Assembly: GCA_914767715.1 (NCBI GenBank)
Contig: OU612075.1
Coordinates: forward strand, 18,476,001 to 18,540,000
From: Membranipora membranacea
Lineage: Eukaryota > Bryozoa > Gymnolaemata > Cheilostomatida > Membraniporidae
Length of the DNA stretch: 64,000 bases
Direction: 5' to 3'
The notes under the pieces were generated by a model, which made no database searches, was not told the DNA's origin, and saw only the letters and a list, made by a program, of their open reading frames with translations. Made by a program: the position numbers and the translations under genes. Below, piece by piece: positions 28,634 through 63,756 of the stretch. Numbering within the stretch: position 1 is the first letter of the stretch; each line of letters opens with the position of its first letter.

Positions 28634-29274
28634 TTATGAGCAGAGAGTCAGTGTGATTGATAGTAGGATGATGAAGTATGATACGACTACATGACCAGCT
28701 TTACTCTGCTTCTGCATAGAAAACGCTGTAGTCTCCCCTATTGGATCAAGAGGATTACCTGCATCTTCAGGAGCATCTGGTGCACCGTCTCCCCCTCCTG
28801 GCGTGTCTGGTTCACCATCTCCTGCTCCTTCTGGAGTATCTGGTTTACCATCACCTCCTCCTTCTCCTTCTTGTGGCGTTTCTGGTTCGCCATTTTCTCC
28901 TTGTGGTGTTTCTGGTTTATTATTTTCTCCTCCTTGGGTTTCCGGATTATTATTCTCTCCTCCTTGTGGCGTTTCTGGCTTTGTTTTCTCTGGTCGTGCC
29001 ACTTCTGGTCTATCTTCACGTTCCTCCAGTTCTGGTAAGGTAGTTGTAGCTAACTCTTCTGGTGTAGTCTCAGCTGTTATTGCATCATCCTCAATTGTGG
29101 TTGTTTCTATTTCTGGAGGGTTAGAGCTCTCTGTCTCGCCCCTAGCTTCTGTTGTCGAGGCTTCGGTTATCAGCACACTTTCTGTGGTAGTCGTTGGAGG
29201 TTCTTCTGTTGTGGTTGGTGGAAGGATAGAGTTTTCCACCTCAGCTTCCATTAACGCCGCCACCATCATTTCAG
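28634..29274 (-). other. Terminal exon: Thr/Pro stalk and GPI signal
   Basis: Encodes a Thr/Ser/Glu-rich stalk (PPTTTEEPPTTTTE), then acidic Pro/Gly repeats of the form PETPQ-GGENN and PDTPEGAGDG, and finally SKAG followed by a hydrophobic stretch ending at the stop. A small-residue site followed by a hydrophobic C-terminal end is the usual GPI-attachment signal, which RGM proteins carry. The Pro/Gly part is degenerate tandem sequence and opens false frames on the plus strand. Confidence 0.7.
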
Positions 29275-32200
29275 CTGATACTGGAATACAATGTGGGTAC
29301 AAAGGTTATACAGAAATTAATCGCTAATATTTACCCCTCAAGGGTAAGCATGCTTAAGATTCCACTCTGAAGTCATCATCAACAGGACTAGAAGGTGTAT
29401 GGAATACATAGCTGTTCAATTACCATTATTGTCCTAATTCCAAAATCAATCAGAACAGACATGATATTTGAGCAAATTGTTTGTGACTGTTGGTTACTCG
29501 ACCATCAACCAGGCAATAACAACCAAGCAATGAGAGTATTGACGCTCTGAAAATTCCCTCACCATTAACAAAGTGGCCAATGTGCTGGCTCTTATTTTAT
29601 TGGATTGGTGGGGAGAGAGCCAATGCTGGTCACACACACTGCTACCTATTCAGATATTGTGAAAGTGAATCGATCTGATTTAGACTGTCAATAAAAAAAT
29701 AGGTACTGCCACTGACTTTACCTCCATACACCCTGGCTATCAATCAAGGTATGATAATAAAGTAGAGGATGCTTACCTGGCTCCGCTCCTCCCGAAGCCT
29801 CTATATCCTCTACACTTGGTGGAGTTGATTGCACTACAGGTACATCTGGCTCTTCCGCAGCAGCTATGAGTATAGCTGCCTCCAAAATTGGGTTCTCAAC
29901 GACTTCAGCCATAACAGCGTCAACTTCCTCATATACAGTCGCAATCTTAAATAAAAAAGTGAAAAAAGCTAGCCAGGTGATCACAATATGGACAATCATA
30001 AATGCTGAGTTTGAAACCGTTGCAGACTCATGTTTGCTTGTTATTTGTCTTAACAACATGTTTGATATAAGGTGCAAACTGAGACAGCTTCTCACAGGTA
30101 TTTGTAGTATTATATTGCTGCGTAATCTTCAAAGTGACGCCCCTTCAATTTATAAATTCAACTTATGAATTCAATTAATCAATTTATTATCTAGGTAAAA
30201 CTTGGAAAATCAGTTAAGAGACTTTGTACTGATGAAGCACTTGTGAAAGTGTGGCTCAAAGCAGTTCCTGCTACCACAGCATCCGTCAGGAATTGGACAC
30301 GGGACCTCTCATTTAATCGTCTTACCCACCCAGTATGTTAAATATATTAGCCAAATTCATGCAAAACTAGGACTATATTGAAGCCTACGAAATTGAATAA
30401 TCATTAATAAAAATAATTCGATAAATGATAAATAATAAATAAATAATAATAAATAAGTAATAAATGATAATAAATAAATAATAACAAATGACAATTAATG
30501 AATGATCATAAGTAAATAATAAATAAATACTAATAAATAAATAATAATAAATAAATAATAACAAATAAATAATAATATATAAATCATAAATAAATGATAA
30601 TAAATAAACCATTAATGAATAATTATAAATAAATGATAGTAAATAAATGATAATAAATAAATAATAATGAAAAAAGAAAATTAATAAAAACAATCAAATA
30701 ATAGAAAAAAAATTAACTCACCTCAGCAGCCGCTCCTGATATGTCAGCGGACACACAGTCATATTTACAGAGCTCCCCGTAGTGACCTTCTCCACATATA
30801 GCCTCACAGTCGAGTGATCGTCTCCTTCTGCTGGCAGCCTCTGCCTCAGTCTCTCCCTCACGGCCCTCACCTGCCGCGGACCTGTCAGCTGCATCAGGAC
30901 AACCCTCTATTAGCAGACCAGTGGAGATCTCAAATAAGGCTCGAGAAGATCTCACCATTACGTTCACCATCCCGCTGAAACATTACAGTACACATAATTA
31001 GCCTAAACAACATTTGATTCACATACTTTGAAATGGCTCATTCAATTTTGTATTTTTGAATTGATACAGCTATACTCCGTGTTAGAGCTGTCGACATGGA
31101 TAAAAGAATGATATATTATATTATCACAATGAACATAGTTTATGTACATATATTATTCTATGGTATAACAGGCCTTTTGTGTCGTCAAACAAACCTTGCA
31201 GGACTACTCAGCGTGATTAATGTTCCAGTGTTCTGTTCTCTGAATAGCGTCATGTTCTGTCCAGAGACTTCTTTGAACTCTTTCACCAACACTGCTGTCA
31301 TCTGTCCATCCTCTCTCTTAGAAATAAAAATATTATACACTATTTTATTACGGAGACAATATCATCCTGGACGCATGTTTTCCATAACGTGCTAAAGAAA
31401 TAACATGCCAAAAATACATGCAATATATGATATATGCACTAAAATCATGTTCTGAAAGCATGAGGGAATACATTGTGATTAGTTCCTGTACGAAAGATCT
31501 ATAAGGTGATGTCTTTGACGGATGTAGGTGACACATACTGGTTATATAAATTCAAAATTTTATTATTATCAAGTCGATAGATAACATTTCTATTGGTCAA
31601 AGGCATCACCGTTTATTATGGATATAATGGGACTGGTGTTAATAGCATTCCCACAATGCCACTTGAATCTGAAATCACTGGGAGTTCCAGAAAATTGCAT
31701 GAGCCAGTATCTACAATTACTGTAGTTGAAGATGAAAATTCTCTCAAATTCTTGCAGTGTTGCCAGAATGTTGGACCTCAACATCATCAGCATCAACCCA
31801 CTAGAGCTAGGAAAGTCTATTATGTGTCAAGTTACAAAAACTCTTTGCTTCGGAGAGACACTGCTGAAAAAAATTGAAAATGACAAAAGCAGCACTCAAA
31901 CCCAACTTACATTGATTTCGATCTCATCTCCATCCAGCTCTTCGAAAGTCGTGTCATTTCCATTGACTTTGGTCTCTATAAAGGCTGGTAGAGTGTTGTT
32001 GTGGTCTGGTGTAAATGTTAAGCTGACGGTAGCTTCGTCCGGTGTACCAATCTCTTCCACAACACTCAGCGTGACCTGTAGGATTGAAAAAGATGTAACC
32101 TTAATCAAAGCTTGATTCTATTTATACAAACTCAATGGAATCTGAATAGCTTGCGGAAAACAAACCAAACAGAATTGTCCCCTCTTAGCACACATCCACT

Positions 32201-35200
32201 TTTTAATACCGTACAGGATTGGAACTTTATATAATAAATATCAATCAATCACATACAGTAAAACTTGTTCTCCCAACTAATTATTATTTCCATACATTTC
32301 TATTTATATTTTTCTTTTCTTTTTTGTTTTTTGTTTATGAAGTCAAAAATTGTTATTTTCTTTTGTTTATAACATACTTGCATATATGAAAACGTTTATA
32401 AAAACACATTATAATAATAATAATAATAATAATATTTCAGTTAATTCACTAGTTAAATGTTGTTGAATATCAGGTTAGCAAGCTGCTACATTTCAATTAT
32501 CTTATCAATGATAGCTCAAAATAATTAAATTTGGAAATGTTTTTGCCAACACATAACTTATTTATTCTCTTGTGGTTCGAGAGCACTATTTATTTTGCCC
32601 TTTTGTTTTTTATTACAAGCCAACGACGCCATTGAATGTTTTTTTTTACGAATATAGCCTATGAATAAGTGGATTAAAACCAAAACAAATTTAGTGGCCA
32701 CCATATAGATAATTAATTTACCAGTGACCATACTTTGTAGTCAGTGATTCTATGTAAGGGATGCTTGTTGGGCATGGGTGATGCCCTGATACAAAATACT
32801 GCCAAAAAAATGGTGCACTGAGTCTAACCACAAAAATGGTCAATTATTTGTCACTTACTGAAGTGAGGAAGGTACCATTCACATCAGTTGACCATCTAGC
32901 CAGCGTTCCAACAAGCCTGAACATTTCATTGACCAGCAGTATGGTTGGTTCCTTGGCCAGCGTTCCATTTAGAATTCTCCCGTCTGTTATCACTTCTTCC
33001 TCTTCTTTCTCGTCCTCCTCTTCCTCATCCTCATAGTAATCCTCTTCGGTTTGATGCATAAAATGCTCCAGACCATCACATGTCTGCATGACTTGTGGGT
33101 AATCTAAACTCTGTACATGAGGGTCTCCTAATACCATTAGTGTCACTCGGTCCTTACTGTTGAAGTTCTGTAAGTGTGAAAATATGCAGAAAAAACCATA
33201 CTGAGTTATAGGATTAAAGGAAGCTTTTTTTTTATAGGGTATATATCTTTAAATATTCAGCCCACTGCAGAATTGATCATGATTCCTTGTATCGGGTATC
33301 AAGAGGGATAGAATAAAATTTTTAAACATCAAAGCAAGGATCAAGATGATAATATCATCTTAATCCTTGCAATGGTGTTTTAGAATGTCTCAAAATTTAA
33401 TAGGGTTTTTGTTTTATTATTTATTGTGCTATGCTGTTGTTGGCAACTTCATGAAGTGCACCAAAGTGTTTCAGCTTTACCTGGATCAAGTTGGTCGATT
33501 ATCAAGCACCCCAATAATAGTGTAATTATCAGAAATCCAAATAAAGTTAGGGCACTTGAACTTACTGGAACATGGTGCTCAAAACTCGAGATTGAACATT
33601 ATCACTTGTAGTCATCAGATCGTATGATGGCTTCAGCTATGGTACTTACTATCTTTTGCCTATAGTCGACTAGTTCACCGGGTATGTCAACCATCCCCAT
33701 TGTCAAAATCTTAATAATTGGCAAGTTCTGGGCCAATGCTTCAGCAATATCAATGTTCTTTTCAGAGCAAAAGAAGTGGAAACTCTTGGCCACGCATCTC
33801 AAGGGCGCAGTCGTCAGCCTGAATCACAAAATATAATGAAACATTTATTGCCATGATAGAAAAGGACAAGGATCAATGATGAAAATCGTTAATATTTATC
33901 TTCACAACTCAATAGTTTTGTTCAATTAATCAGTCTGGCATTCTCTGTGAGGGAGTGAACAATCATTTTCATTCTCTGCAATTCCAAGAGGCATGTCAGC
34001 AATTATATTACTCAATATATTTTAATTATATTTTGTGGCATTGCAATGGTAACTTCTGCTGACTCAAAGAAATAATTATAATGATTACCTGACAACTTGT
34101 GAAATGAGCTTTACAATCTCCATAACGTCGGGTGTAGTTTTCTCAAACTTTCTCATCATTTTTCCAACCAGACCTCCTATTGTTGCTCCCACTTCTCCCA
34201 GATCGCACTTCATCATGGCTTTATGCATTGTCATCATCATTTCAATCTTCCTATTTGACGGAGAGTTCACTGGAGAAAAAAACCAATATTTATATTATTA
34301 TAACGCATTTTTATTGAGGATTTCATAAATGTATGTTATAAACAAACTCTTATATTTAGATGTTGTGCTTTAAGGGTCTAATTAATTATTTTTAAAAACT
34401 ACAGAATGACCAAAGCAATATAAAGTCTGGCACCTAGTTCTCCAGTAGTTATGCAATATTTCCATCTAGGAAATGATCAGAGGTATGATACTTACTGTTG
34501 GTGAAATCTGGAAAGGAACCATCATCCTCAAGTGCACATTCAAGGAAGTTAGACACATATCCAAAGTTTGATCCCAGTACTGAAAACAACAAGAATATTG
34601 CAATTTACTTATTTGTAGGTTAAAAAAAGAGAAAAAATAAAGAGGTAATTATGACCACCACACAACTCAGATCAACAGTAAATCATTTGGGATAGGAAGG
34701 TGCCCTTCACCCTCAACGGGTGAGCTATCCCTGAGAGCTGAATTCCTAATTCCATTTGAAGAGCATGCGACGTTGTCAAAATACAGAATTTCACAAACAA
34801 ACTATTTCTAGCCCTTAATGCATTGCTATACATATTAAAGTGAGGCTAAACAGGCTATTGGACGTCATAAACTTTGTGTTGGATGTAATACATGTGACCA
34901 GAAAATGGAATGAGAACATTAGCAATAGGTGAGACAAATGATGCACATATTACAATTTATTTCTGAAATTTCGCCGCCCATGCTTCAGGGTGTGGTGTGT
35001 GGTATGACAACTTGATTATTTTGATCAAGAAGTAGCATTTTCCCAAATAATACTGTAATATAATGCAGGGCTCACTTACGTTCCAGTAAAGGTTTACTAG
35101 CGTGGTAGGTGATGCTACCATCTTGATGCACGTTTCCAGCGCACATTGAGGTTGGCAGATTGAAGAACCATTTCCTCATACCATTTTCCCAGCGCACCCC

Positions 35201-38200
35201 ACAAGGTTGTACCATTGCTTTTTCACTGGTAAGCATTTTGTCCATACAAGACAGCATTCTTTCTGCAAACCTGAAATTAAACCGAGCCAAAAAAATATGA
35301 ATACCAATGCAGGTCAGTTCAGTCGTAAGTCACACGCAATGTGGTCAAGTTTTCCTATGAGTTTTCCAATGAGTTTTCTTAAGAGTTTGCCTTTTAGTTT
35401 TCCTCTGAATTTCTAAACTTCAGATAAATCTTAGTTACAAAAAGAGACTAAGAGCCATACAATGGGTCATTCTAGGTCTTCTTGTAACATATGTCTTCTC
35501 ACCTTCATGCTTTAAAAGACATAGAGATGAGATGAATACAATGACATACATAGACTCACTTGCAGAAGTTGTTCATTGAGGGAGGGACCTTATCAAAAGT
35601 GAAATCTGTTCCATTTCCCACCATATCCTTATAATCAACTCCCATTCCGGCGGCCATATGTGTGAGAATTCCTGTCATCTGCTGATGAAGCACACTCTCA
35701 GGCTTAACAAACTTTCTCATTATTGCATTCTTGTAGTAGAGCAATATCGGGTGTGTAATCAGCTGCAACAAAAAGAGAGAGAATTTAAAGTTTGTTGATG
35801 TCGGAGTAACCACTAGATCGCGTTTGCTTCTTAGCATTAGGAGTTGCTTCCATTCTACTTAAAGGCTGATGCAATTCTGGCTCATGAGTAGGAAAAGAGC
35901 AACTTCATATCCTGAAAATTTGGATCAAACTTGTATCCATAAAAAAAGCTTACTATAGCTGCGATAACACAAATTTTTCTTACTGTTGCTACCTGACATT
36001 TTAACTCAGGTGAATGCAGACATGCTTGTCGATTCACATTTACTCAGAGTTGAACCATAGCTTGATCTGATTGATAGTCACGATAAGGCTTAAAACAATG
36101 GTGAATTTGGGCCTGTATAGCTCTGTGGCTATTTGATTTAAGTACATCAACTAATGAGTATCAACCCTGATTCGACCCTAAATTTTCCTATAAGGATGCT
36201 TAGGCTTTATGATTTGATTGATACATTATATCATTTGACCAGTATGAACTTAGGAGCAAGTTTCCAACAAATAATGTGGAAAGGTAAATAGTCGTGAACT
36301 TGAAAAGAACAATAGAACAGAAAAGTTTATTGAGACTAAAAGCTACCCAAAGACCAATGCAATGCATGGTATAATCAGGCAGTTACATATGATAAAATTG
36401 TCAGATTTGCATCGTAAAAAATAATAATCAATAATTCATATCAAGAAGAGCATCGAATTTTTCACAATGCAAATCTGACAACTTTATCATAGTAATAACT
36501 GCCTGACTTTAACATGCATTGGTCTTTGGGTGGCCAGTCTTTAAGTTTTTACAACCTGTATCATGTACTAATTTAAGAATCTAAGTTACATCGGACCTGC
36601 CTTCGAAAATAAAGAGCTTGACAGAGCTATGGATAAAACCTACTGCAAATTCTGATCAGTGAAACTTGTAAAAAAATAGTAAATATTGAATTTTCCTAAC
36701 CTCAGATGAAATAAAGATCATGTTAGATATGTTATTCCCCCATTCAGAATGGCTCCCCTCTGCTAAAAAGCTGCCAGTAGAGGGGGAGCAAGTCTGAATG
36801 CAGGCAAACTCGATCTAGATCAAATCCAAATTGGAGGGAGGTACACTCTTCCTATCAGAACAACTCAAAAATAGCGATATATATCTGGTAACTTTTGCTC
36901 TGTTGACAGAGCTTGACTTGATTGAGATATAGATAGAAATAAAGCAAAACTCATGAAACTGGCCATATTCATCTCAGTTCCTCGTGCAAAATTTCCATTG
37001 ATAGCCTTACAAATATACACGCTTACAATAATTTAAAAAACTTGTAGATTTAGTAAACTTACATGATCAATAGTGTTCATAGTCATAACATTATCTAGGA
37101 AATTGTATTCTTCTCCTGGTTCAACACAAGCAGAGACTGAAACAAATCATAAAGATAGTTGCATTACGGTTTGGTATGGTTCAAATAATTTCTAAGCAAC
37201 AAGAAGCTGTTGATAATCAATTTTAATTTTTCGTTGACAGATAATAATAATAATGAGTTTTTTTGTATACCGCTTGATGTAAGCCACAATGGGTACTTCT
37301 AAGCGGTGAACAGTACATCATTAAGGTCACTGGGTCCAGGCACTCCATAGCCAACCCTGACTAATGAGAATCTACATCGCATGAAGCGCTGGTACTCATT
37401 GGAACACCCTACCGAACTCGGCTTCTCAGGTAACACCAGTGGACATGCACGGGAATCGAACCCTGGTTGTCAGATCGATGATCCAACCCACTAACCACTA
37501 GGCTAACCTGATATTGGCAAATATTGTAATCCCAATCTAAAGTGTATAAAGTTTAGCACTAACCATTGACCAGTTTCTTTTGTATGAATTTCCTTATAAT
37601 GCCTTGCATTGTTAAGTTCTGATCAGCTTGTTCAGTCTCGTTCTGATCAGCTCGTCTTCTTTCTCTTGCACCCTGTAAATGATACATTATTACCATAGAG
37701 GCTAATCATTCCATCGACCAAAGAATTATTGGCATAACATGCGATCCAGCAAAACTGTATGCAAGGAAGCAAAGTTATTAACATACATAAAAAAAACAGC
37801 ATTGCAAATGAGGAAGAATGGCACATCTCAGTTTGGATAACTAAGAAAGGCTTTAAAGATACCAATATATTGTTTAATCAGGAGCTATCTCCCCACGACA
37901 AAAACAAAGAAAAACCCCCAAATTCTCTTCCAACTCTTTTAAGCAATACTGCCCATTACAGTTGTTAGTGAAGAAGTTGATTGATTGAATTTATGTTTAG
38001 ATATTATTGCCACAATTGACAAAGTCGGTTGTACAAGAACAATCAACAAAATGAAAAACACATGTTGCGGACTGGGTCAATCACACAGCTTATCTATTAT
38101 TGATGTAAACATATTTTAATTAGGTGACCAAATATCATGCTGCTGTAAAACACTTTAGATAGCATCATGATGAGAGGTGTTGTGAAAAAATGATTCCGTT

Positions 38201-38896
38201 AGAGGTTTCTTGTCGGCAATATGAATATCTTGGTCAATAAGCCAGGCTGTGATCGGCTGTTGGTTACCAGCTAACAGCCAATCAGAGGCATCACCTTGGC
38301 TCACTATTATATCATTGACATTATTTTCTGTTCTGTTCAAGTTCTGTTACTATAATCAGTCTAAGGAATACAGCTGAACGACTCCTAGCGGTAATATTGC
38401 AATTTCTTGATGAGCATGTGTTGACTGCAACTAAAGAAAAAGCTTGAGAGATTACCAAGAAACAAACCTGACTGCCTTGCAACTAAAAGTCTACAAATTA
38501 CAAACCTCAGAATTCCTAGGGATGAAGGGTTTGCTGTCAGCGAATCTGTGCTCCTTTTCATCGTATCTTGATAATAACTCCGTGAGTGCATCTCTGTAAG
38601 CGTTGTGCAAGTAATTGTATTTGGTAGGAACACCACCCTAAAATGACCAAAGCCTCAGTGTACTACAACTATGTTGAAAATGGGTCAGGTTAAAACTTTT
38701 GCCATTGATTGGCCGGTCAGAATGACAATGTGTGACATATTCTTGCATGCAAGGCAACGACACTATTTTCACAAGCACAGAGTATCAGCAACCTTTTATT
38801 CACAACTTTTACAGTTAGTGTTGATATGATCAATCAATCGATGGATGGATCGATGGATGGATGGATCGATGGATCGATGGATCGATCGATGGATCG

Positions 38897-38972
<76 letters not shown>

Positions 38973-47900: not shown

Positions 47901-50900
47901 GGCTATCAGCAAAGTCGGTTCTGCCGCCAGAGTGCCTTCGATAATTCTTTCATCTGTATCGTTTTCTTGTTCAACTTGAGTGTTGAAATAATCCAAAGCA
48001 TTGCATGTAACAAACTCCTCATGGAAATCAAGGCTCTTCACGTGTGGGTCTCCGACGACCATCACAGTTACCCGATCACGACCGTTGAATTTCTGGAAAG
48101 AGGCATTGATTGATCCTTGTTAGTGGGTGTCCATGTATAAAAATATTTGGCAAATATCACGAAATTAAAATGATATATTGTGCGAATAAAATTGTTATAA
48201 GATAGTCATAAGGTTCATCACACTTTCATCAAGTAGGTTAGTTAGTCTAAGTACCTCGCTACCCCTTATTCTTTAGGATGGTACTTAAGCTACATGAATT
48301 AATTTATGCTCCATCAATCAGAGATGTACATGCAATAGTACATCACACGATTAGCCCGTCTTGTTGTGGGGGTGAGGGAGCAACCCCCACAAATAAGCTT
48401 GTCAAGACAGGCTTATCACCTGATCAGTAAACGGGTATGCATTACGGTTATGTACACTCACTCTTCCACTGTCGTATTTAGTAATATCCATCGGAATATC
48501 AATTAGACCAAGTGTGGCCCTTTTTATCATCGGCAAGTTAGATCTGATCCCTCTGATTAGGCTCACATTTTTTTCCGCGCACATAGGATGGAAGGCTTTG
48601 GCCACACATCTCAGAGGAGCACCAAACGACCTGTTTGGAGAAATAAGAGCGGTAATAAACGATAAGTGAATGCTGTCTCTTTCATGATTTATCCTACAAC
48701 AATCACAGTTCCACCATAAGTCACTTAAAACTCAATTAAACTCTGATCAAAGTTTTCACTTAATGACAGATTTCCAATAATGGATTTGTGATTCTATTTG
48801 TCAGGTTTTTGCTAAAATTCAAAATTATCCTACTGAGACTATGTTATTGGTCGGTTTCTGTGTCCCTTGATACATAATTTACAGACAATTTTCTTGTGTC
48901 GCTCTGGGACCTTATTGATTTCCATACATAAACAACCTCAAATAATAATCCTATCCCCTACCCCCTACAAATCTTCTCCCTTTAGTATCCCCATCCCCTT
49001 TAATCTTACAACTCCAGGTTTGGGGCCTGCAAACGATTACCTATCATGCAAAAGTTACACAGGTAATAACTACAGCTTTACAACAACAAGGACTAGTCTA
49101 TGTTTTCACCATACCTTACAATCTCCTTGAAAAACTTAACCATGTCAATCACATCTGTTGACCCTCGACGGAGCATACGCCAAGCTTTCTCCAATTTCTT
49201 GGCTATTCTTATTCCTGTTGGCTCCAAGTCACATTTTGTGGTGGCAAGGCGGGCATAGTGCTTCATCTCTAGTATTCCAGGACTCTCAGCTGATATAAAT
49301 GGAAAGAGAAATGCTTGATTATTCAAGCAAGTCTATCAACGGTATAGAACTGCTTAGGCCGCCTATGAATAAAGAGGTAACAGCCGCACATGCGACCCAT
49401 TTCAATGAGAGTTCATAAGCTATATCAGCCATTTAGATTTTGTGTCACTTCAAACATGAATATGAATATGAATATGAATATGAACATGAATATTACTGGT
49501 ACAAGCTATGTGATCTTTTGCCTCCTGGCTACCTAAATGCAACCATTGACCACACAAAGTTTGAGCATTTCCCGATTTGTGAACACTTTATATAAAGCAG
49601 CTGCATGTTGAGTTGTCAAGAATTTACCGATCATTCACTCAAGCTGTTGATCATCATAAGTACCACCCTTTACCACCCTTTACCACCCTTTACCACCCTT
49701 TACCACAACTTCAAATTTCAGTCTACTTTCTGACCATATAATGTTAGCTTCTTACTTTGTGGCCATTTTTTATTTTGACAATGTATCAAGCATCACACTT
49801 ACACAGATCACGTGATATACTATTGCATGTATATCTCTGATCGATAGAGAGTGAATTAATTCATTTAGTAAGAGTACCATCACAAGGAATTTGGTGTGAC
49901 AACCCATGTATAATTTTATTAATTAGGGGTGGGTACACGTTAGGTACTGCTACTAAATTGACTCTAACAATCAGATATACATATGTGATCTCGATGTCAG
50001 TGTGCATCACACTAGCAACACTGGTTGCTGATTGGTCAATTTTACCATGTTGTTGTTCCTGAGGGAGAGGGAGTTCATTGATGTGAGTGCGTTATCTCAC
50101 AGTCGTTAACTTTTGCTGTTCTAAAAGCTTACGTTTTGTGAAGTCAGGGAACTTGCCATCTTCATCCAGAAAGCAGTCTAGGATATCCAGATGATCTTTT
50201 CTATTATATCTGAAGGCTACACATAAAATAGAAGTAATAATATTATTCTACTTCTGCTCGGCTGACCACTTAATATAGATATATAGATTTCCGAATAGTG
50301 CCGAAAAATAAAGAGGAAAAGGAAAAAAGAAAGCTTGAGAATATAGATAATTTATATTTGATATCCTCAATTAATATTGTTTGATCAAAGCACAGTAACG
50401 TACACACTGCTGATTTCTTACAACCAATCAGACTCTGACCTTCATATTAATATTTACAGCAATTTTTACCTCATCTCTTTGTTAGAACAACACCAAGCAT
50501 ACACTGATTGATCATTGACTGCTGCCAGTCAGTCAAGTAAATATGTACCTATTGAATTTGTACAGCTCAAATATAACTATTGAATTGTTAGCTAATGGGC
50601 AATTAATTTGCACATAATGATTGTCAAAATCAGGGTATGAAATCAATGAACTAGATAAAATAGAGAGTACTTACTATTATAATAGATATACTATAATGAT
50701 TTATATAATAGAACATCATCACTTGGTCCATAAATTTCACTCCCAGACTTTGAGAATCAGATTAATCAAATAATTTGCCCAATAGGTGAAAATTCTGAGA
50801 TTTACGCCTGAATTAGTTATCTTTGATTTCCCTTACAAGTCATGACAGGCAACAGACTGTTACATACTTACCCTTTTTTATGTTCAAACTAGGCCTATAG

Positions 50901-53900
50901 ACGCTCAGATTGGTTTCAAGCTCTGTGCACAAGTTAGTAGGAAGTCTCAAGAGCCATTCGGCCATATCTTCATTTTCAAACCGTTTAGCACATGACGAAT
51001 TATTCATCTCATCAATGACAGTAGGTAACAGCTCCTGAGCAAAACTAAAAGAGCAAACCAAAAAATCATTGATACCTACTCATGAATCACTATAATATAA
51101 CATTTCTGAATGGACCCATGTGCTTGTGTTTTGGTTCTGTTTTGATTGGCTTGGTTTGGGTTTATTAATGTATTGAGTAGATAACTCAAAACTGTTGGAC
51201 TGAATCCCAGTCTAGTTGATTATATCATCTGATGATCTGATGCACTGCATTATCCATGATGATCACACAAACTTCAATATAAAAAACAAGCAACACTGTG
51301 AATTTGGATGGCAATAAAAACATACTGCTAGTAGGGTCGGCCAAATTCAAACTTACTTGCAATATCCTTTTACCATCTTAATCATGCCTCCTGAGGTGTA
51401 TTCTTTGACGTCTGTGAACAAGTCATAATACTGTAGGCCAAACAGTTCAAACCCGTCACGGAGGAATTGAGTGACCTGATCGTTCACAGGGTTGTCTGTC
51501 TTCATGTACTTGTTGATGAGGGCGTTTTTATAGTACACCAGAACCGGGCTTACATCTCCCAAGAGCTATAAAAAATAAGACAACATCAGAATATTTTAAC
51601 ATTGCTTTTCACTGTAACATTTATGACTATTTTTTGCTTTCCCCTTTTACTCGACAATATTTGGAAAATATGAAATGACATGACCGAAAAGTGAAAAAAA
51701 GTAGATTCATCAAAGTTATGGTTAATGGGGGAGGGGAGGGGCTTTGGAAAAAAAGTCATAATAATTTATGCATCCATATCACAAAGAACTGAAATACATT
51801 TCTCAAAAGATCAGATACTCAACTTGTAACGATGTTAGATAGCGCTGGCGTTAGGGGTCGGTAAACGGTGTTGTAGTTTGTGCAAGGGACATTTCTGTTG
51901 CTATTTTTAGCAGATAATACAATTTAAATACTCTATAAATGGACTATAAGCCTTTGATCTGACATTTCTAACAATAGAATGAAGTCCTCTTATCTTGTCA
52001 CGCAGACCAAACCTATCTGTGACAGAAATCATAATATTCACTAGTCATCGAGTTTGCGTACTGTTTACATCACAGCTAAGAGCACTCAGTTAACCTGTAA
52101 GTGTTTTTTTCTACAACTCTTTTTACAGTGCATACACACAACACAAATCTCATATTTCTCATGTTATTGAATTGTTATCCCTTACATTCATTCGTTCATG
52201 TGTAGTGTGCAACGTGTCAATGTATAAATATGTCCTTATAATCAATTATTATTTACAGTTGATGTACACAGGACTAGTCACCTATGCTCATAATTATTAT
52301 ATTGGATCGCTATTATATCCGCTCATAATGTGTGAGTTTTTCTTCGTGTACTATTTAGAATCATGTACATTTTTCCTTTGGTTAATGACGTAACCGTTCA
52401 TTCAATTGAGGAATTAATTATAACAAGAGAGTTTTTCATTGTTTGATGCTTGTCAGCATCACACCAGCTATTTCTCGTAGCACACTCATTCGCTCATTCG
52501 TTTTTCTCTCTTACACATATTATTAATTCATTTTACCTTTCCACAGGTTTACCAGTAAATCAGTAAAACAATACACTGCGTCATACACACGGAATTCAAA
52601 ATAGCCTTCGCAATACACAACTAGATACTTACTTTTTCTACGTGAGGTACTAGGTCCCATATACCATTTTCTCCACACCCCTCCTCTAAAATAAATAAGA
52701 GGGTGACATCATAAACAAGGTGCTTCTGGTGATTGAATGAAAACCCTAAAGGGCACATCAACAACACTCCAATAAATAACCTTAGCATTGAAACCCCATG
52801 TGTTTCAAATCAAACTCTAGTTTATCTGATAGCAGATTGAGAGAGAGAGAGAGAGATCTCATGTTGCCATATATCAGTTCTCATTGTGGTTACTCGAGTA
52901 AATTGAGTTGCAGACACACATTAGCACACCTAATAACTGATCACTAGTTTCACCATTGCCAGTTCTGTTTAGAAATCCCGTTATTGTTGGGAAAGGTGAT
53001 CGAAAGTTGTGAGATAGATTTATTCTGATTCAGTGTGCCTGCATTTGGATTATCTCCCCTCCACTGATAAGCATCATGCAAAAAGGCCTGCAGCGGCAAA
53101 CTGGATCGAACTGGAGGGATATGACTACCTTGAGTACAAGTTATTGAAATGGCGTGCATTCATTTGAGTGATTTCAATGAGTATAACCTCAAAGCTGACG
53201 TATTGTCTTAAGATTTTCACTCATTGAGAAAAAGTTGACATTTTCACAAAACCTGCCACAAATTTTATATAATACACCTTATTATGCTGTTCATAACTTA
53301 AGACCAATGTGGACATTCAACATCGAGATTAAGGTTATACTTATACTTATACTTATCAAGGTCAAAATATATTTACAAAATTCTACCTAAAAATGTTGGT
53401 CTGGTCAGGTTACAATGGATAAATTGTCTTCGTTCTCAACTTGAATCTTGTCACTCACCTTTGAATATCACTTCTTTTTTGATGCCCTCAACAACTATTT
53501 TGGTCTGCTGCACAGGTAATTTCTTCATCCAGCGTGGGAGTTTGCTGTATTTGAAATACCTTTGTATATGTGTATAGCATTGTGCCTCATCCTCTTCAAC
53601 TAGAAAATAACTGACAGTTAAAATCAGGGCGGCTGTAAAATTCATACATGTAGATATTGGCAAATCTTGTTTCGTCATGTAGTTTATTGCTGTATAGGAT
53701 CTCAAGGAAGTTAACAGATGTAATGAATTCAACTCAATTTCATAACTGGCAAAAATGATACTTCAATGGGAATGTTCTTATGTTTTGTTGTATGAATAAA
53801 TAATGTCTCAATGTTTTGCAATTGTGAGGTAAGTCGATAAACAAATTCACCAAATCAGAATGGCTCACGAATTCACAAGTCAAACTCAAGAAGTCTTATC

Positions 53901-56900
53901 TAATGAGCGTTAAATTTCGGATTAAACTGCATGACAATCCAACAAAACGTAGTCACATGTCATTTTAACATGAAGATCACGCTTATACAACCTCTAGAGG
54001 GGTAAAATGTCTGGTTAGGCATTCTGAAGACTCACTCATAGTTGGATATAAGCCTTCACTTATAAGATAGATTATCTCCTCCGGGTGCTCACCATCATCA
54101 CCATCCATCATTATGTGGGTCTCATTTATAATATGCAAGAAGCCCATCTCACTAAAATACTTTAGAAATAACTTGCAATGAATACGCAGCGAATACAGAG
54201 GCTCACAAGATAGTCCAGCAGATATAAAAGCTTAGCAAGACATATTGTAAATAAGGAAATCGAATGCAGTCATAAGCCGTTTTACAGGTATGAGCCTCAA
54301 TTTGCTTTTACCGAATAGTATGGCACTGACTGACAGTGACTTATAGGGCGTATATAGCTTATAGTTAATAATGGTCGCTAACTTCTATTTAGACAGCTAT
54401 GGCAATATTGTATGTTGTTGGTTCGAGGTTGAAACCCCCTAATCTCGGAATGCAGATCAGAGTTCAGTTCTCATTAGGTCTAAACTTTGAGCTGCACACC
54501 ATGTATTTATTATAAGGTTAGGGAGACATACAGGGATGATTATCAATAACTGTTTGATTTGTTGGGAGTTGTCCCCTCTTTTTATTTACAGCAACTAAAT
54601 AATGTGGATCTAACATAGACTCTATAATAAACTTATTATCGAGTCTATGAGGTCTATTAAATAGACTTAATAATAAAATTATCAAATCTATGGTTTAACC
54701 AGGGACCTTCTACATGGTCTAAGTCAGGAGACTACTAGACCAGCTTCAAATTTAGAGATCTTATTCCTTTCCATATTATCCCTTGATAACTTTTTGGCAG
54801 CAGTCACATCTAGTTCCCATTGCAAAATAAAACTGTGGAAATCGAAACCTTCAATAACAAAAAGAGAGGCTATTTTCACAAGCAATATCACTTTGTTGCA
54901 ACAACTACATATATAATGCTGTAAGACATGGATATATAAAAAAACACATACCTCAAAGTTCTCTTTTAGTATCCATCTAAGGAATGGCAGAGAGCGAGCT
55001 ATATCTTCCTCAGTTAGGCGTATAGGCGGAGGAGGAGCTGTTTCTTCCATTGCTGCCGTTGTGCTCTGATACTGAGTGGTTGCTGCATCAGTCTGATTTA
55101 CAGCAACGATTGTGGTCTGATTTTCATTTGATGTTGTACCGTCTTCAGAAAGTGTTGTGTTGGTCTCAGACATTGTTGTGTTCTGAGACATTGTTGTGGT
55201 CTCGGATAATGTTGTGGTGTTAAATCCAGTTGTTGTTTCAGTTGATGCTGATGTGGTCCCCTGTATCGACTCTGTCCAATTCTTCCAGTTCACCTATAAA
55301 AGCAAAGGTCCTCTCATTTCAGCTAGCCAAAACTTGGTGCTAGCTAACATTAAATCAGCCAAGAACTAGCTAAAATAAACTAGATAGCTTAGATAAGAGT
55401 AGACCAATCAAGAGGTAAATTGGGGGTGGTGACCAGCTTCAATTTTGTAATTGTGCATCAATGGCGGTCGAATATTAAACTCCACCATTGTGTGCTGATT
55501 TGAGCTTATTATTTGTATTAAAGTTTTTGTATGAAGAAATATTCCAAATATAAAAAAGACGCTCTGAAGAAACGAATAGAGTTGTCTTCTTTTAATGCTA
55601 CCATTCTAATAAAGAACCCTCTTACAACAATTATGAACGCAGCCTAAATGTTACAAATATGCTCATCAGAAGCAAGACAACTTGGGATAAATTTAATTCT
55701 TACCAAGCACAGTTTAGCCAAAGGCTCCTTGGCCATCAACTGCCTCTCAAGTTGCAGAGTCATGGAGCGAATCAGATCAATACCCGACTTCAAAAATGGC
55801 ATCTTCTTCTCATCATCGTCATTACCTTCATCACCGCCTCCAGCTTCACCGCGGCCTCCAGCTCCACCGCGGCCTCCAGCTCCACCGCCACCTCTAGCAC
55901 CACCACCGCGGGCACCACCGCCACGGGCACCACCGCCACCCTGGGCTCTAGGTGTAGTGACGTTTGTATCTGGAGGTAGAGTTGCGTTTTTGTCTATAAT
56001 TGGCCAATCTACATCCTCTAGAATTGTCTCTTGGGAGGCTTCTATTATCCATTCTTTTAAACTCTCGGCAGATTCCAACAGCTGATCTACAAGCTCTGTC
56101 GCATCTTCTGACTCCGCCTCCTCAATAGATTGTTCTATGACTGACAGTTCAGCTCGCATGTTAGTAATGTTTGTAAGGATAGTTTGGTTTGAAGCTTCAA
56201 ATTCAGGCTCAGTGGACTAGAAAGCAATATAATATACTCATAGATAATCACGGCAAGCGATGTGGTGTGTTACCATTGTTGTGAAATAAAACACTATACG
56301 GCCATGATAACAGACACTGGATTTACAACATAATTCCAAAAATTATCAAAAAGTCACATCAATATAGAATATAGATGTTGTCCAACTACAAGGCCTGGGC
56401 CACAAAGGGGTGACTGAACTCAAATGAACCCACACAAAATGTGATAATGCGACAACACATCACATGACGAGTAGAGACAAAAAAGAAAGGCTTATTAAAC
56501 CTTACACGCCATAGCCAGACCCAGATATTAGAATATCCAGTAATTTTCTTTGTGTTCTTTGGGAACTCTCATATTCAGGGCACATACAAAGAGTATCTCA
56601 TTGAGACAGCTGATTGCAGTGTGACAAACAATTTTGGAAAGTTAATCCCCATAGCTAGTCTCGCGAATATCTCAATTCTAAAAATTACTAGTTGTTGGTC
56701 TGAAAATCTCACAGTCAGTACTGATTTTTATATATCTATTCATTTATTTTACATTTTGCATTTACCTTTTTAAGGGGGATTCTTTTTAGCAATTTTATGC
56801 ACCCAGTAAAAAGTTTTTATTTTATGTAAACATCTCTGGAGAGAGGGTCTTAAAATTAAACAAACAAACATTATACTCTCATAACTCACATTATCCTCAT

Positions 56901-59088
56901 TGCTTCTTTGGACTTTGGTACGACGATGCGCACAACTGAGGCTGTCGAAAAACATGTTAACCTGTCGTTCGATCCAACCAGTGCCTCTTCCTTTTCCTAC
57001 AAAGACCAAAAAAAGTATTTTCACAGTGCTGTAGTTTAGGAAAAACGGTAGGGGAGGCAGAAATACTTGAGAGTGTGAAATAACACCAAGTTGGGTGTTG
57101 TAAGCTCCTCATGTGGTGTCTAGGGTTAATCCCCAGCCTCCAAAGCGTTTTAAATGATATAAATAGCGTATTATAGTTCCAAATGAGCTGATTCTGACAT
57201 GGAATATTCAATCATAGCATCAGTATTCAATGTGATGATGATCCCTCACCCTTCCTGAATACTTTGTAACTGAAACTAACTCTACATTGTAGAGTCTACG
57301 TCTGAGCCACGCTGACATCAAGACTACACTAATATCATGTGTATCTCTGATCGTGAGAGTCAATTAAGTACAAGTAGTCAACTACCTAATATGTACCTGC
57401 CCCTAATTAGTTAAATTGAACTCAGGACGTCACACCGAATTCCTTGTGATGGTACTCATGCTAAGTGAATTAGTACACTCTCTATCGATCAGAGATATAC
57501 ATGTACTAGTATATCACGTGAGCAGTGAGTGTCTGAGTACTACTCTGCTGGTGGTCTTCTAACCCTTATATGGACGGGTGGAGGGGGCAGGGTCCAAATG
57601 TTCAACAAATCGAATATGATCAAGCTGGGTCACCAACCTTTTGTAGCTTACCTTGCTACCAGAGCGAGCTACAACTAGCAAGTTATTATACTTTTCTGCT
57701 TCTGCTCTTTTGCTTTCTAAATTTTGACCTTATGCACATAGCATACTCAAGTAACAGAATGTCTAAACTCTCCATATCAACAAGTGCCGAGTGCCAACCC
57801 AAGTGCCGAGTGCCAACCCAAGTGCGGACTAGCAAGTTAATAATTTTCAGACTGAATGCTTGGTCAACCCAAATGACTCATGAGACCATCATTTATGTCA
57901 GATTAAGGATTGGCTGTTATTTTTATGATAACATTGAGACTAACCTTCCTTCCTGTCATCTTTCTTTCTCTCGACATTTAGGTTGGCTTTGTTAATTTTT
58001 CTAATCTTGTCCATCACAGAGACAGCAGTCTCCAGATCATCATCCCGTCTCATAGCCTTGAATGTACCCTCCTGATAATGCTTTACAAGCTTTGTTAAGA
58101 GATCTTTTGGATACTTCTCAAGGCAGGCGAAAGGTGCTGCAAGTATACAAAAAGTCATCACAACTATGGCTAACACTGTTAAAACAGCGCCAATAAAAAA
58201 GAAAAGCCAATAATTGGTCACAGACAAAACAATCAATGAGGGAGTTCATTGATAATATGGATGGGACTAGACAAGGTGATATGTCAGAAAAAAATTATTC
58301 TCTATGTTCTACAATCTACAGGATGGGTACATACAATCATAAAAAAATTTTCCCTCGCTATTAGTGGCACATAGCCATTATACAAGGTGCATCGAAGGCA
58401 CTGCTTCCATACTATGATTACTAACAGTTAATCATGCTGTTGTCCTTGCAAATTGGCCAGTGAGCCCCGGTCATGTTAAGTACAAATACGTTCAAATTTA
58501 AGCATCTTTAAATCCGTTCTCATCATGGGAAATCTTTGGCTTGGAACATACATTTGCATGTAACTACTACGACTTTAACTTACTTTGTTTTTTAAATGCC
58601 ATATATTCATTTCCATGAGTTTGTACCAGATGTTCTAACACGTGTAGCCCAAGGGCCTTAGGAGAGCAACTTTTCTCATCGCGTCTTTTAATGGGTAGAC
58701 TATCCCTTAGTACAGCACCACGTCCCGATAGTTTCTCCTTCTCTGCAAAGCAGGAAAACAACTAAAATCAGCTAGCAATAGATGAAGGTCACAGTTCAGT
58801 TTAGTTTGTGTATAGAAGAAGATCCGTTCCAGCTGCAACTTCAGTCACTCTTTGTAAGCTAAGGTGGCTAAACTAAGTCGGCAAATAATTATTATACTGT
58901 TTCAATGTAAGCTTATAGATGATGGTAGCATGACAAATCGAGGTAAGTAAGTTAAGACCTATCGATAACTAAAGAACAATGAGAAAAAACAATAACGACT
59001 TACCAGCTTTAGAGTTTGGTGTTTCTCCGATAACAACGAAATGTAAGGTATAGAGAAATACACACAGGAGAATAGGTCGGATACCCAT
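28634..59088 (-). CDS. Tandem double RGM-like GPI-anchored protein, 38 exons
   Basis: Transcript-order exons, unit A: 59088-59004, 58742-58584, 58136-57945, 56996-56890, 56216-55704, 55293-54952, 54147-54036 (weak acceptor), 53599-53459, 52685-52633, 51565-51357, 51044-50872, 50216-50133, 49289-49115, 48630-48462, 48092-47829, 47240-47064, 46454-46330, 44938-44074, 43670-43553, 42390-42160, 41493-41365. Unit B: 40930-40781, 40409-40266, 39806-39226, 38637-38506, 37672-37564, 37136-37063, 35762-35560, 35270-35080, 34579-34496, 34269-34089, 33818-33650, 33167-32859, 32075-31911, 31316-31195, 30974-30722, 29945-29777, 29274-28634. Phases agree at every junction; the sum is 8100 nt, 2699 aa. Signal peptide MGIRPILLCVFLYTLHFVVIG; GPI-type tail VVSYFIILLSITLTLCS. 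Each unit ends in an RGM C-terminal-type region. RGMs bind BMPs and neogenin at the cell surface; that role is inferred. The A-to-B join uses a GC donor; two separate genes remain possible, but no signal exon for unit B was found. Confidence 0.72.
30380..30705. repeat. AT-rich (AATAAATA)n tract
   Basis: More than 300 bases of degenerate AATAAT/AAATAAAT repeats in the intron just after the exon at 30722. It generates a spurious 102-codon frame on the minus strand. Confidence 0.85.
32283..32435 (+). repeat. Retroposon copy with TAA tail
   Basis: A T-rich body (TTTTCTTTTCTTTTTTGTTT), TTTATGAAGTCAAAAATTGT, then ATAACATACTTGCATATATG and a (TAA)n tail at 32405-32435. Matches 63757-63875 along its length and 7735-7792 at the 3' end. 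Intronic, opposite strand to the host gene. Confidence 0.65.
36344..36531. repeat. Foldback element with 65-bp inverted arms
   Basis: Left arm begins CTACCCAAAGACCAATGCA and runs through CAGGCAGTTAC and TTGTCAGATTTGCAT to about 36412. The right arm (about 36466-36531) is its inverted complement, from ATGCAAATCTGACAA to TGCATTGGTCTTTGGGT. The arms match with few differences around a spacer of about 55 bases. Typical of a MITE or other foldback element. Confidence 0.75.
37242..37508 (-). mobile_element. tRNA-derived SINE
   Basis: On the minus strand it starts AGGTTAGCCTAGTGGTTAGT (box A-like) and has GGTTCGATTCCC (box B) at about 37451-37462, then a body of about 190 bases and a (TTA)n tail at the 37242 end. 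Correct spacing of the two pol III promoter boxes followed by a non-tRNA body and short-repeat tail identifies a SINE. It lies in the intron between exons 37564 and 37136 of the RGM-like gene, same strand. Confidence 0.8.
38829..38970. repeat. Tetranucleotide microsatellite (ATCA/ATCG/ATGG)n
   Basis: A block of GATGGATGGATC variants passes into a clean run of AATC repeats of about 90 bases. Located in an intron of the RGM-like gene. Confidence 0.95.
39226..39806 (-). other. Unit B exon: N-glycan-sequon pentapeptide repeat
   Basis: A 581-nt exon of the RGM-like gene made almost wholly of a 15-bp tandem repeat encoding TEGNV, TEETV and TEEST variants, about 37 copies. About 15 copies give N-V-T or N-M-T sequons, so the segment may be densely N-glycosylated as well as O-glycosylated. 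Acceptor TTGATAG and donor GCG-GTACGA fit phases of both neighbouring exons, which supports it as a real exon. The 15-bp period keeps all six frames open, which explains large false frames here on both strands. Confidence 0.6.
40266..42390 (-). other. Junction of unit A and unit B
   Basis: Unit A finishes with two Thr-rich exons (TTTVAPTTTTEPKEPTTTTE; TTTTIATTTEKLTPAEKKKE). The second would splice through AAGCAG-GCTAGT, a GC donor, into the exon VKNLGRGGLLAKSIP that starts unit B. This exon and the next (GCLHAMPMDFIGDLMYAL) are paralogous to unit A exons 2 and 3 (LSGRGAVLRDSLPIK; CLEKYPKDLLTKLVKHY). If the GC donor fails, translation stops at TAG (41360-41362), and an AATAAA lies about 180 nt beyond, near 41178. 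I found no signal-peptide exon for unit B between 41365 and 40931. Confidence 0.6.
43421..43530. repeat. 12-bp tandem repeat, about 9 copies
   Basis: Units of the form CATATGCATTGC with small variations (TTACA, TGTAC). Intronic, between exons 43553 and 42390 of the RGM-like gene. Self-complementary ATGCAT and CATATG cores recur in every unit. Confidence 0.85.
44290..44700 (-). repeat. 72-bp coding minisatellite, 24-residue mucin-like repeat
   Basis: Inside the 865-nt exon of unit A. Five full units and a partial one start with SDNQTTVATES and continue to GNTSVAEE-T. Each has two N-glycosylation sequons (NQT, NTS) and many Thr/Ser. The corresponding unit B exon is only 253 nt and lacks the repeat, so the expansion came after duplication. 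It sits between the furin-type site and the C-terminal CELSC segment. Confidence 0.85.
45612..45682 (-). repeat. tRNA-like SINE head fragment
   Basis: Minus strand TGGTAGCGCAGTTGC resembles a tRNA box A and GGTTCTATCCCC a box B, at proper spacing. The putative acceptor-stem ends do not pair, so this is a tRNA-derived repeat fragment and not a working tRNA gene. Intronic. Confidence 0.55.
48235..48360. repeat. Fragment of a palindromic MITE family
   Basis: Shares GATGGTACTTAAGCTACATG-AATTAATTTATG and CAATCAGAGATGTACATGCA-type blocks with the elements at 49800-50010 and 57300-57535. More diverged than those two. Confidence 0.45.
49660..49706. repeat. 10-bp tandem repeat
   Basis: Four to five copies of TACCACCCTT in an intron. 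A second short array, of GAATAT units, lies at about 49455-49492. Confidence 0.8.
49800..50010 (+). repeat. Palindromic MITE, copy 1
   Basis: Begins near ATCACGTGATATACTA, contains TATATCTCTGATCGATAGAG and AGAGTACCATCACAAGGAAT, and ends with an inverted version of the start. The minus strand of 57300-57535 matches it across the full length. Confidence 0.7.
57020..57225 (-). repeat. Dispersed repeat, copy 2
   Basis: Inverted relative to the copy at 22960-23190, with about 200 alignable bases. Located in the intron between the exons at 57945 and 56996 of the RGM-like gene. Confidence 0.6.
57300..57535 (-). repeat. Palindromic MITE, copy 2
   Basis: Its minus strand contains ATCACGTGATATACTA, TATATCTCTGATCGATAGAG and GAGTACCATCACAAGGAATT in the order seen at 49800-50010. 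The ends are inverted repeats of each other around ATCTCTGATCG. Both copies are in introns of the same gene in opposite orientation. Confidence 0.7.
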
Positions 59089-62725: not shown

Positions 62726-63518
62726 TTAGTTTTCTTTTAACCAGTCTCCAATAGTGGTCCTTATCACCAGCCTGGCAGCCTTCAGACCAGGAAGGTCATT
62801 AGGGCTCTCTGGATACATGTTAGCGCAGTGGGCTGTTCCTACAATAATATACAATGTCCACTTGTTCATCTGATGTTTATCAGTATTCACATGCTAATTC
62901 ATGTTAGCTGTATGTATGGATATGGATGGACAAACAGACAGAAAGACAGACGGATAGATGGATAGACAGAAAAAGAGGGGAAGGGGGGTCTTTCAATTAG
63001 GCATTGCCAAATACTCAGCCGGACCTTTCATGAGCAAGGTTTATTGGAGATTTTGTGCCCAAATTTGTCTGATTGAAAGGTTAAGAAGGGCTTAGAGTGA
63101 GGTTATTGAAAGAAGAACACCCCTAGAAAGCCAGAAAAACTTTACATTATCTCTCTGATACCTACCAAGTCCTACATCAGTACAGCTTACAATCCAAAGG
63201 ATTGCTGTGTTGTACATTTTACCTAGCATTGTCACGCGGCCACTTTTTGTATCAGTTTTACCAACGAAAAAGTGGCCACCTGACAAGGCTACTGGAACTT
63301 GAAACTTACCATTGATGAAAATTGCTTTGGCATCTGGAGATATATCTTTAGTGATTCCGAGAGCATGCCATGGATCTATACTACCATTAGGGAAGAGAAT
63401 ACGAGTGACCTTCACCCCAAGGCCGCCATAGTTGGCGTTAGTAAAAGCTATTGAGCTGTTAAGGACGGCCTCATTGATTGATGGTCCAAATATATCCGAG
63501 CACTGCTGTGTCCAGAAC
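62726..63518 (-). CDS. Peptidase family S28 (PRSS16/prolylcarboxypeptidase-like), 3' part
   Basis: Two exons in transcript order, 63518-63310 and 62838-62726 (TAA), joined in phase 1. The first encodes [21 protein letters not shown] and [16 protein letters not shown], the last containing the catalytic Asp of the S28 family (NGxxDPW). The second encodes [10 protein letters not shown], with the catalytic His, and ends DWLKEN. The nucleophile Ser and signal peptide would be in exons beyond the right edge. S28 enzymes cleave after proline or trim peptides in lysosomes or extracellularly; the motif spacing is closest to thymus-specific serine protease. The partial first exon begins at a TTTCTGCAG acceptor in phase 2, so the gene continues past 64000. 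Confidence 0.88.
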
Positions 63519-63756
63519 CTGCAGAAACAAAATGAACAAATTATTGTAAATGATTTGATGTAATAAAAAAATATATATATACCTTATAGTATAGCAATAT
63601 TGAGAGTGATAAAATATTAGCTCTATACTGAAAAGGTACACTCAAAGCAGTGAATACACTGCTTGACTTATACCCTATAAGATTATGTCAGCGGTATTCT
63701 CACAGAAAACACTCTCAATAGCGTGGAACTATTCATTGATCAATCTATAAATATCT

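Follow-up and report, generated by a model that had tools for sequence, protein, structure and literature searches.

In a 64,000-nucleotide window (the whole stretch of DNA analyzed) of contig OU612075.1 from the bryozoan Membranipora membranacea, one large minus-strand gene carries a unit of about 1,300 residues in two well-preserved copies, A and B, set back to back. The internal duplication of the unit is real, the two copies share a common exon plan, and both are old and under selective constraint. Each copy has a GDPH motif opening a core that shows a faint and distant resemblance to the partial von Willebrand factor type D (vWD) domain of RGM proteins, a group of signaling co-receptors. 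We regard it as a tentative proposal, of slightly less than even probability, that one gene formed by internal tandem duplication encodes a two-headed, stalk-linked protein with a glycosylphosphatidylinositol (GPI)-type end and divergent RGM-type cores.

An internal duplication with a common exon plan

The hand-checked gene model runs from an ATG at 59088 to a stop codon at 28634 and comprises 37 exons, 7,950 nucleotides (nt) and 2,649 residues. It was built with a simple self-trained gene finder, after which each exon was fixed by hand on the sequence and on the homology between A and B. The unaided output (45 exons, 7,722 nt) was not adopted whole: 27 of the 37 final exons, including 16 of the 24 paired exons, are identical to it, and the remainder was altered or dropped by hand (among the paired exons, A13, A14, A15, A17, B2, B3, B9, and B10 were adjusted). 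The resulting chain of GT-AG exons has no phase conflict, no internal stop, and a single terminal stop, in agreement with a preliminary description of this DNA, whose total of 38 exons and 8,100 nt was not reproduced. Under our own scheme, 33 of the 36 acceptors score above 0, as do 35 of the 36 donors. The weakest splice site is the A7 acceptor (-2.6) at the A6-A7 junction, and a search between A6 and A7 for an extra exon fitting a stronger acceptor gave a single poor 37-nt candidate and no good one.

A BLASTP comparison of unit A with unit B, the latter counted from exon B2, aligned a middle block of 517 residues at 39% identity (E = 2e-104), together with collinear blocks at the N terminus (99 residues, E = 2e-5) and at the C-terminal Cys motif (48 residues, E = 2e-6); two more alignment rows were non-collinear and at chance level (E = 5). 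The N-terminal block alone (A2-A3 against B2-B3) reached an E of 1.4e-8 in a two-sequence comparison. Seven pairs of exon sizes given in the preliminary description were recovered exactly (209/203, 84/84, 175/181, 169/169, 264/309, 177/165, and 125/122 nt), and correspond to A9/B9 and A11-A16/B11-B16 in the present numbering. When A2/B2, A3/B3, A10/B10, A17/B17, and A18/B18 are added, phase is identical at both edges in each of the 12 compared pairs and all 14 intron phases agree; no equally good match arose in 200,000 shuffles of B's intron phases. Exons A4-A8 and B4-B8, which lack a clear pairing, do not enter this comparison, and the agreement is not fully independent evidence because A/B homology partly guided the manual placement of some boundaries. 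Taken together, the alignment, its collinear blocks, and the common phases strongly support the earlier claim of two complete tandem units. At E ≤1e-3, a tblastn search of the window with both units detected no copy beyond A and B.

Across 484 aligned codons, A and B are identical at 0.548, 0.684, and 0.347 of first, second, and third positions, respectively, and 26 of 80 fourfold sites are identical, compared with a chance expectation of 0.25. Silent sites are therefore near saturation while second positions have been kept, indicating that the copies are old and that both have been under selection at the protein level.

Anatomy of the encoded chain

Both units follow the same order: an N-terminal Cys module (A2-A3 and B2-B3), a unit-specific stalk, a second Cys region (A7-A13 and B7-B13) that appears helical by sequence reading alone, a core running from GDPH to GCP, a basic site, and a paired-Cys motif (Table 1). 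The core ends at EGCPD, at residue 1010 in A and residue 2317 in B, and an additional basic RERR lies at residue 1730, within B6. Nine cysteines are common to A and B across the aligned part. The whole chain has 64 N-x-S/T sequons, 17 of them in A17 and 16 in B4. Thr and sequons abound in the stalks, several of which consist of tandem arrays. Two such arrays are coding, in frame, and sequon-dense, namely 5.5 copies of 72 nt in A17 (44293-44685, minus strand) and 36.7 copies of 15 nt in B4 (39251-39800, minus strand), and these may differ in length between individuals. Four-base microsatellite arrays also occur in the B4-B5 intron (38837-38970). Exon A14 folded alone gave an uninformative model (predicted local distance difference test score of 45.8).

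The two ends of the chain were assessed by hydropathy rather than with a trained predictor. A1 (hydropathy 2.33) is the sole credible signal-peptide exon and serves the whole chain, not unit B alone, and the clearest GPI-like tail, in B19 (hydropathy 2.67), follows a stalk. The preliminary description had assigned a signal peptide exclusively to A and a GPI tail exclusively to B; the best candidates are indeed so placed, although weaker ones exist elsewhere.

Comparison of the cores with RGM proteins

Excerpts of the literature, on which this and the later citations draw, describe RGM precursors as a signal peptide, an N-RGM part, a C-RGM part with a partial vWD domain containing GDPH, and a GPI sequence, with lengths of 426 residues for RGMC and 458 for RGMA (PMC6370684). 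In many VWD domains that carry GDPH, cleavage takes place between the Asp and the Pro of the motif; the cleaved motif has been observed in RGMB, and MUC4 is likewise cleaved at GDPH (PMC10880436). Hemojuvelin is cut at GDPH into halves that stay joined by disulfide, and its soluble form results from furin cleavage at RNRR (PMC4395201). A single-copy Rgm gene was reported for the selected invertebrates of a chordate study (PMC10605842), and Caenorhabditis elegans has one RGM, DRAG-1 (PMC8595726). No description of a double RGM was found in the titles and opening parts of abstracts of the open-licence papers among the matches listed; in the portion of PMC13025143 available, RGM and Amphimedon wording occurs in other contexts only.

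The Membranipora chain is like RGMs in its signal peptide, its Cys-bearing N-terminal part, a candidate vWD-type core that begins with GDPH and closes with GCP, C...Y..C.(F/Y)D after the core, and a hydrophobic GPI-like tail, as well as in a weak collinear profile match, and the basic furin-like site is like that of hemojuvelin. The order of these features along the chain agrees with that of RGMs. Unlike RGMs, which have one core per protein, it has two units and two cores in one frame (if the A19-B2 splice is used) and is 2,649 residues long rather than 426 or 458; it also carries Thr-rich stalks, has just one Cys where the LC..GCP motif has two, and shows neither a detectable N-RGM part nor a Pfam RGM_C match.

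GDPH is also found in classical VWD domains (VWF, mucins, and FCGBP) and in BMPER, the cleavage of which is known. TFDG and CGLCG, the marks of classical VWD, are both absent here, and classical VWD proteins are not known to be GPI-anchored tandem units. With these two motifs missing, VWD profile scores within those of shuffles, and no Pfam VWD match at E ≤10, assignment to the classical VWD or mucin D domains was rejected. MUC4-type transmembrane mucins similarly join a Ser/Thr-rich stalk to a GDPH vWD domain, but they have a transmembrane and EGF part where this gene has a GPI-like tail, and its repeated units bear Cys.

Library-scale searches did not recover RGMs. The Pfam check proposed for the units gave no match to RGM_C, RGM_N, or VWD at E ≤10 for six pieces of the chain or for both cleaned cores, which drew only chance-level families (best E 0.098). 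No RGM chain in PDB matched at E ≤10, either with single sequences or with a two-sequence profile, for which the best rows (E 0.15 and above) were neither RGM nor VWD. Two word-based searches of a protein database found no relatives. Distant kin may have been missed by them because shared exact words were required; in the first, the acidic stretch of its query and a limited candidate set further lowered the sensitivity, and the second used unit A residues 690-1022. The database does contain RGMs, with 978 matches to an RGM query. A tblastn search of the open reading frame (ORF) of the A core against phage records gave no match.

Targeted profiles were more favorable to an RGM link for unit A. 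The RGM profile was made from 42 diverse proteins among the best 120 of the 978 matches, plus RGMB from PDB, and the VWD profile from 13 domains. With filters off, the full-length RGM profile gave cleaned unit A 5.8 bits, ranking it at the top of a set of 1,002 sequences that included 1,000 shuffles, and unit B -2.1 bits. The RGM core profile scored the cleaned A core at 12.1 bits, a value reached by none of 1,000 shuffles, and unit B at -0.9 bits (58 of 1,000 shuffles as high). Corresponding VWD scores were -0.2 bits for A (315/1,000) and 0.2 for B (130/1,000), so that in unit B the VWD score slightly exceeds the RGM score, both within noise. When stalk and acidic stretch were retained, native unit A fell to 3.4 bits with the RGM profile (3/1,000) and native unit B scored -1.1 (77/1,000), compared with -0.8 (884/1,000) and 0.1 (171/1,000), respectively, for VWD.

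A profile of A and B combined aligned to the RGM core with a score of 30.5 over columns 154-280, the GCP-to-Cys part, with the GDPH part matched separately and in order. Against VWD it scored 20.6 on GDPH, with a second row at 13.0, and reversed controls gave 12.9 and 12.5. None of 300 full column shuffles reached 30.5, the highest scoring 25.8. When GDPH was kept fixed, 50 of 300 shuffles did so through hits starting at the GDPH end; outside GDPH none reached it, and one came to 30.4. Run on 43 RGM sequences, the combined profile gave a median of 6.7 bits (range 0.5 to 14.8), compared with a maximum of 4.7 among the 615 shuffled sequences reported of 1,075. No RGM N-domain signal was obtained for either N-terminal segment by profile-profile comparison or in Pfam, and N-RGM homology of these segments was rejected.

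Several of these results count against RGM membership, namely the empty library and database searches, the null scores of unit B by itself, the lower score of native unit A, the shuffle at 30.4, and the lack of an N-RGM signal. Moreover, the shuffle figures carry a selection effect because the RGM idea was chosen beforehand. In our reading, the RGM-leaning core signal is real but weak; it stands above VWD for A and for A and B combined and is insufficient for membership, and the sequence suggests a probable, though very divergent, kinship with the RGM core. The RGM-like character claimed in the preliminary description persists as a weak collinear signal in unit A and in the combined profile. 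At library scale, the profile searches gave the outcome that the preliminary description had named as refuting it, no detectable RGM similarity, and the similarity is also absent from unit B alone and from the N-terminal parts.

A strong competing possibility, which also falls a little short of even probability, is that the units belong to a non-RGM family of surface proteins that came by their RGM-like features (GDPH, GCP, the basic site, and the GPI-like tail) through convergence or remote vWD descent. Such a family would account for the library-scale searches without RGM, the missing N-RGM signal, and the null result for unit B alone, and GDPH vWD domains do also occur in MUC4 and FCGBP (PMC10880436). 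On the other hand, unit A favors the RGM core over VWD whether cleaned (12.1 versus -0.2) or native (3.4 versus -0.8), as does the combined profile (30.5 versus 20.6), and the chain combines an RGM order of features with the absence of TFDG and CGLCG.

One product or several

A single protein containing both units, as proposed in the preliminary description, is likely, since no convincing start exon was found for B and the candidate tails for A are weak. Between 42159 and 40931, the only in-phase hydrophobic start exon is at 42132 (donor -0.1), and extending the search back to 46329 adds only a candidate, at 45087, whose frame continues into A17. The A2-A19 block, 4,089 nt long and divisible by 3, has phase 1-1. 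An internal duplication by way of phase-1 introns fits best because B has no convincing signal exon and A no clear tail.

Nevertheless, an A-only transcript is plausible because the alternative terminal exon at 41493-41360 has a better acceptor than B2 (3.2 versus 0.4), a coding-like composition (its 0.35 log-odds per codon falls among the values of the stalk exons), a stop codon, and an AATAAA at 41185. Two in-phase tail candidates for A likewise weigh against a double protein, one at 41531 (hydropathy 2.97, acceptor -2.9) and one at 41044 (acceptor 2.0, tail 2.07); beyond these, five rows between 42623 and 41287, in other phases, pass a tail value of 2.3. Furthermore, A1 and A19 both leave phase 1, so that three products are possible: A, B (through A1 joined to B2), and A-B. 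Because unit A is a phase 1-1 block, the locus could conceivably make two further products, unit A alone in soluble form and unit B alone in anchored form.

Taken further, these observations would fit two neighboring genes or separate products, with A secreted and ending in the exon at 41493-41360 and B a GPI protein made from its own start or through the in-frame A1-B2 splice. We consider this rather unlikely given that the region from 46329 to 40931 holds no convincing signal-peptide start exon and that the B19 tail is equaled only by a candidate with a very poor acceptor.

It is improbable that the unit A gene instead starts at 53645 (MNFTAALILTVSYFL...), with A1-A6 forming a separate upstream gene. 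Such a start would explain the weak A7 acceptor, and an open frame resembling a signal peptide does run from 53645 to 53459 (minus strand) into A7. However, A2-A3 match B2-B3, which are themselves in frame with B4-B19, and similar signal-like reads over polypyrimidine tracts occur at A3 (58158) and B18 (29999). The frame at 53645 is probably also a read through a polypyrimidine tract, with use as an alternative start possible. Finally, an artifact, chance, or a pseudogene is very improbable; the model is known from DNA, not transcripts, which would leave room for such a reading, but a 2,649-residue open frame spans its 37 exons, second codon positions are constrained, and intron phases are common to A and B.

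Proposed origin and function

Under the proposal of a two-headed protein, the part of a single-unit ancestor that ran from its exon 2 to its stalk exon would have been duplicated in tandem through phase-1 introns. The product would then consist of a signal peptide, unit A, a Thr-rich glycosylated linker, unit B, a stalk, and a GPI-type tail. Each core is predicted to cleave itself at GDPH, between Asp and Pro, and furin-type cleavage may shed or separate the units; by analogy, the basic site in A could part the heads and the one in B could shed the ectodomain. Two RGM molecules staple two NEO1 receptors, and RGM bridges BMP and NEO1 (PMC8063088). By extension, two equal binding heads on one anchor, carried by a long glycosylated stalk, might be the covalent, single-chain counterpart of two RGMs stapling two neogenin receptors. 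Bivalent function of this kind, advanced in the preliminary description, is suggested by analogy, and we consider it doubtful that the protein is a covalent tandem RGM in the full sense, i.e., a two-headed, GPI-anchored co-receptor of RGM type in which one chain does the work of two vertebrate RGMs.

If the RGM link holds, the protein would represent a ready-made dimer of a co-receptor whose molecules ordinarily act in pairs, it would allow one to test whether signaling comes from the pairing of RGM cores, and the RGM family would extend far beyond the reach of current profiles. If it does not, the gene still encodes a large surface protein with GDPH motifs that underwent an old internal duplication, kept under constraint, and that has no relative found in the collections searched here (Pfam, PDB, and the protein database).

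Features of the gene and its neighborhood

Table 1. Exons and motifs of the two-unit gene, in order of translation
Feature	Positions	Strand	Remarks
Exon A1	59004..59088	-	ATG and signal-peptide-like segment (hydropathy 2.33); leaves phase 1
Exon A2	58584..58742	-	N-terminal Cys module; partner B2
Exon A3	57945..58136	-	Partner B3
Exon A4	56890..56996	-	No clear B partner
Exon A5	55704..56216	-	Gly-rich repeats; no clear B partner
Exon A6	54952..55293	-	Ser/Thr-rich (34%)
Exon A7	53459..53591	-	Weakest acceptor; signal-peptide-like ORF begins at 53645
Exon A8	52633..52685	-	
Exon A9	51357..51565	-	209 nt; partner B9
Exon A10	50872..51044	-	173 nt; partner B10
Exon A11	50133..50216	-	84 nt; partner B11
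Exon A12	49115..49289	-	175 nt; partner B12
Exon A13	48462..48630	-	169 nt; partner B13
Exon A14	47829..48092	-	264 nt; opens vWD/RGM-like core of unit A
GDPH, unit A	48042..48053	-	Residue 812
Exon A15	47064..47240	-	177 nt; partner B15
Exon A16	46330..46454	-	125 nt; partner B16
Exon A17	44074..44938	-	GCP core end, sequon-rich stalk, then CELSC..YSDLCIFDC; partner B17
RKRR, unit A	44707..44718	-	Furin-like site; residue 1061
Exon A18	43553..43670	-	Partner B18
Exon A19	42160..42390	-	Thr-rich linker; leaves phase 1
Alternative terminal exon, unit A	41360..41493	-	Stop; AATAAA at 41185
Exon B2	40781..40930	-	First of unit B; entered in phase 1
Exon B3	40266..40409	-	
Exon B4	39226..39806	-	Thr-rich stalk; 16 N-x-S/T sequons; 15-nt tandem array
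Exon B5	38506..38637	-	
Exon B6	37564..37672	-	
Exon B7	37063..37136	-	
Exon B8	36701..36793	-	
Exon B9	35560..35762	-	203 nt
Exon B10	35080..35270	-	191 nt
Exon B11	34496..34579	-	84 nt
Exon B12	34089..34269	-	181 nt
Exon B13	33650..33818	-	169 nt
Exon B14	32859..33167	-	309 nt; opens core of unit B
GDPH, unit B	33117..33128	-	Residue 2109
Exon B15	31911..32075	-	165 nt
Exon B16	31195..31316	-	122 nt
Exon B17	30722..30974	-	GCP core end and CEAIC..YGELCKYDC
RRRR, unit B	30818..30829	-	Furin-like site; residue 2343
Exon B18	29777..29945	-	
Exon B19	28634..29280	-	Pro/Thr/Glu-rich stalk, hydrophobic GPI-like tail, stop

Scans for tRNAs and Rfam families found nothing in the window. Upstream of the gene start, an RVT_1 reverse transcriptase domain extends over two ORFs at 60214-61194 (plus strand) and has the look of a decayed non-LTR-type element. 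Further upstream, an ORF at 63092-63583 (minus strand) matches serine carboxypeptidase S28 (Pfam E 5e-17). On the other side of the gene, minus-strand ORFs at 16460-16735 and 15832-16125 match a V-set immunoglobulin domain (E 1.1e-6) and, weakly, a second immunoglobulin-like one, and are probably part of another minus-strand gene.

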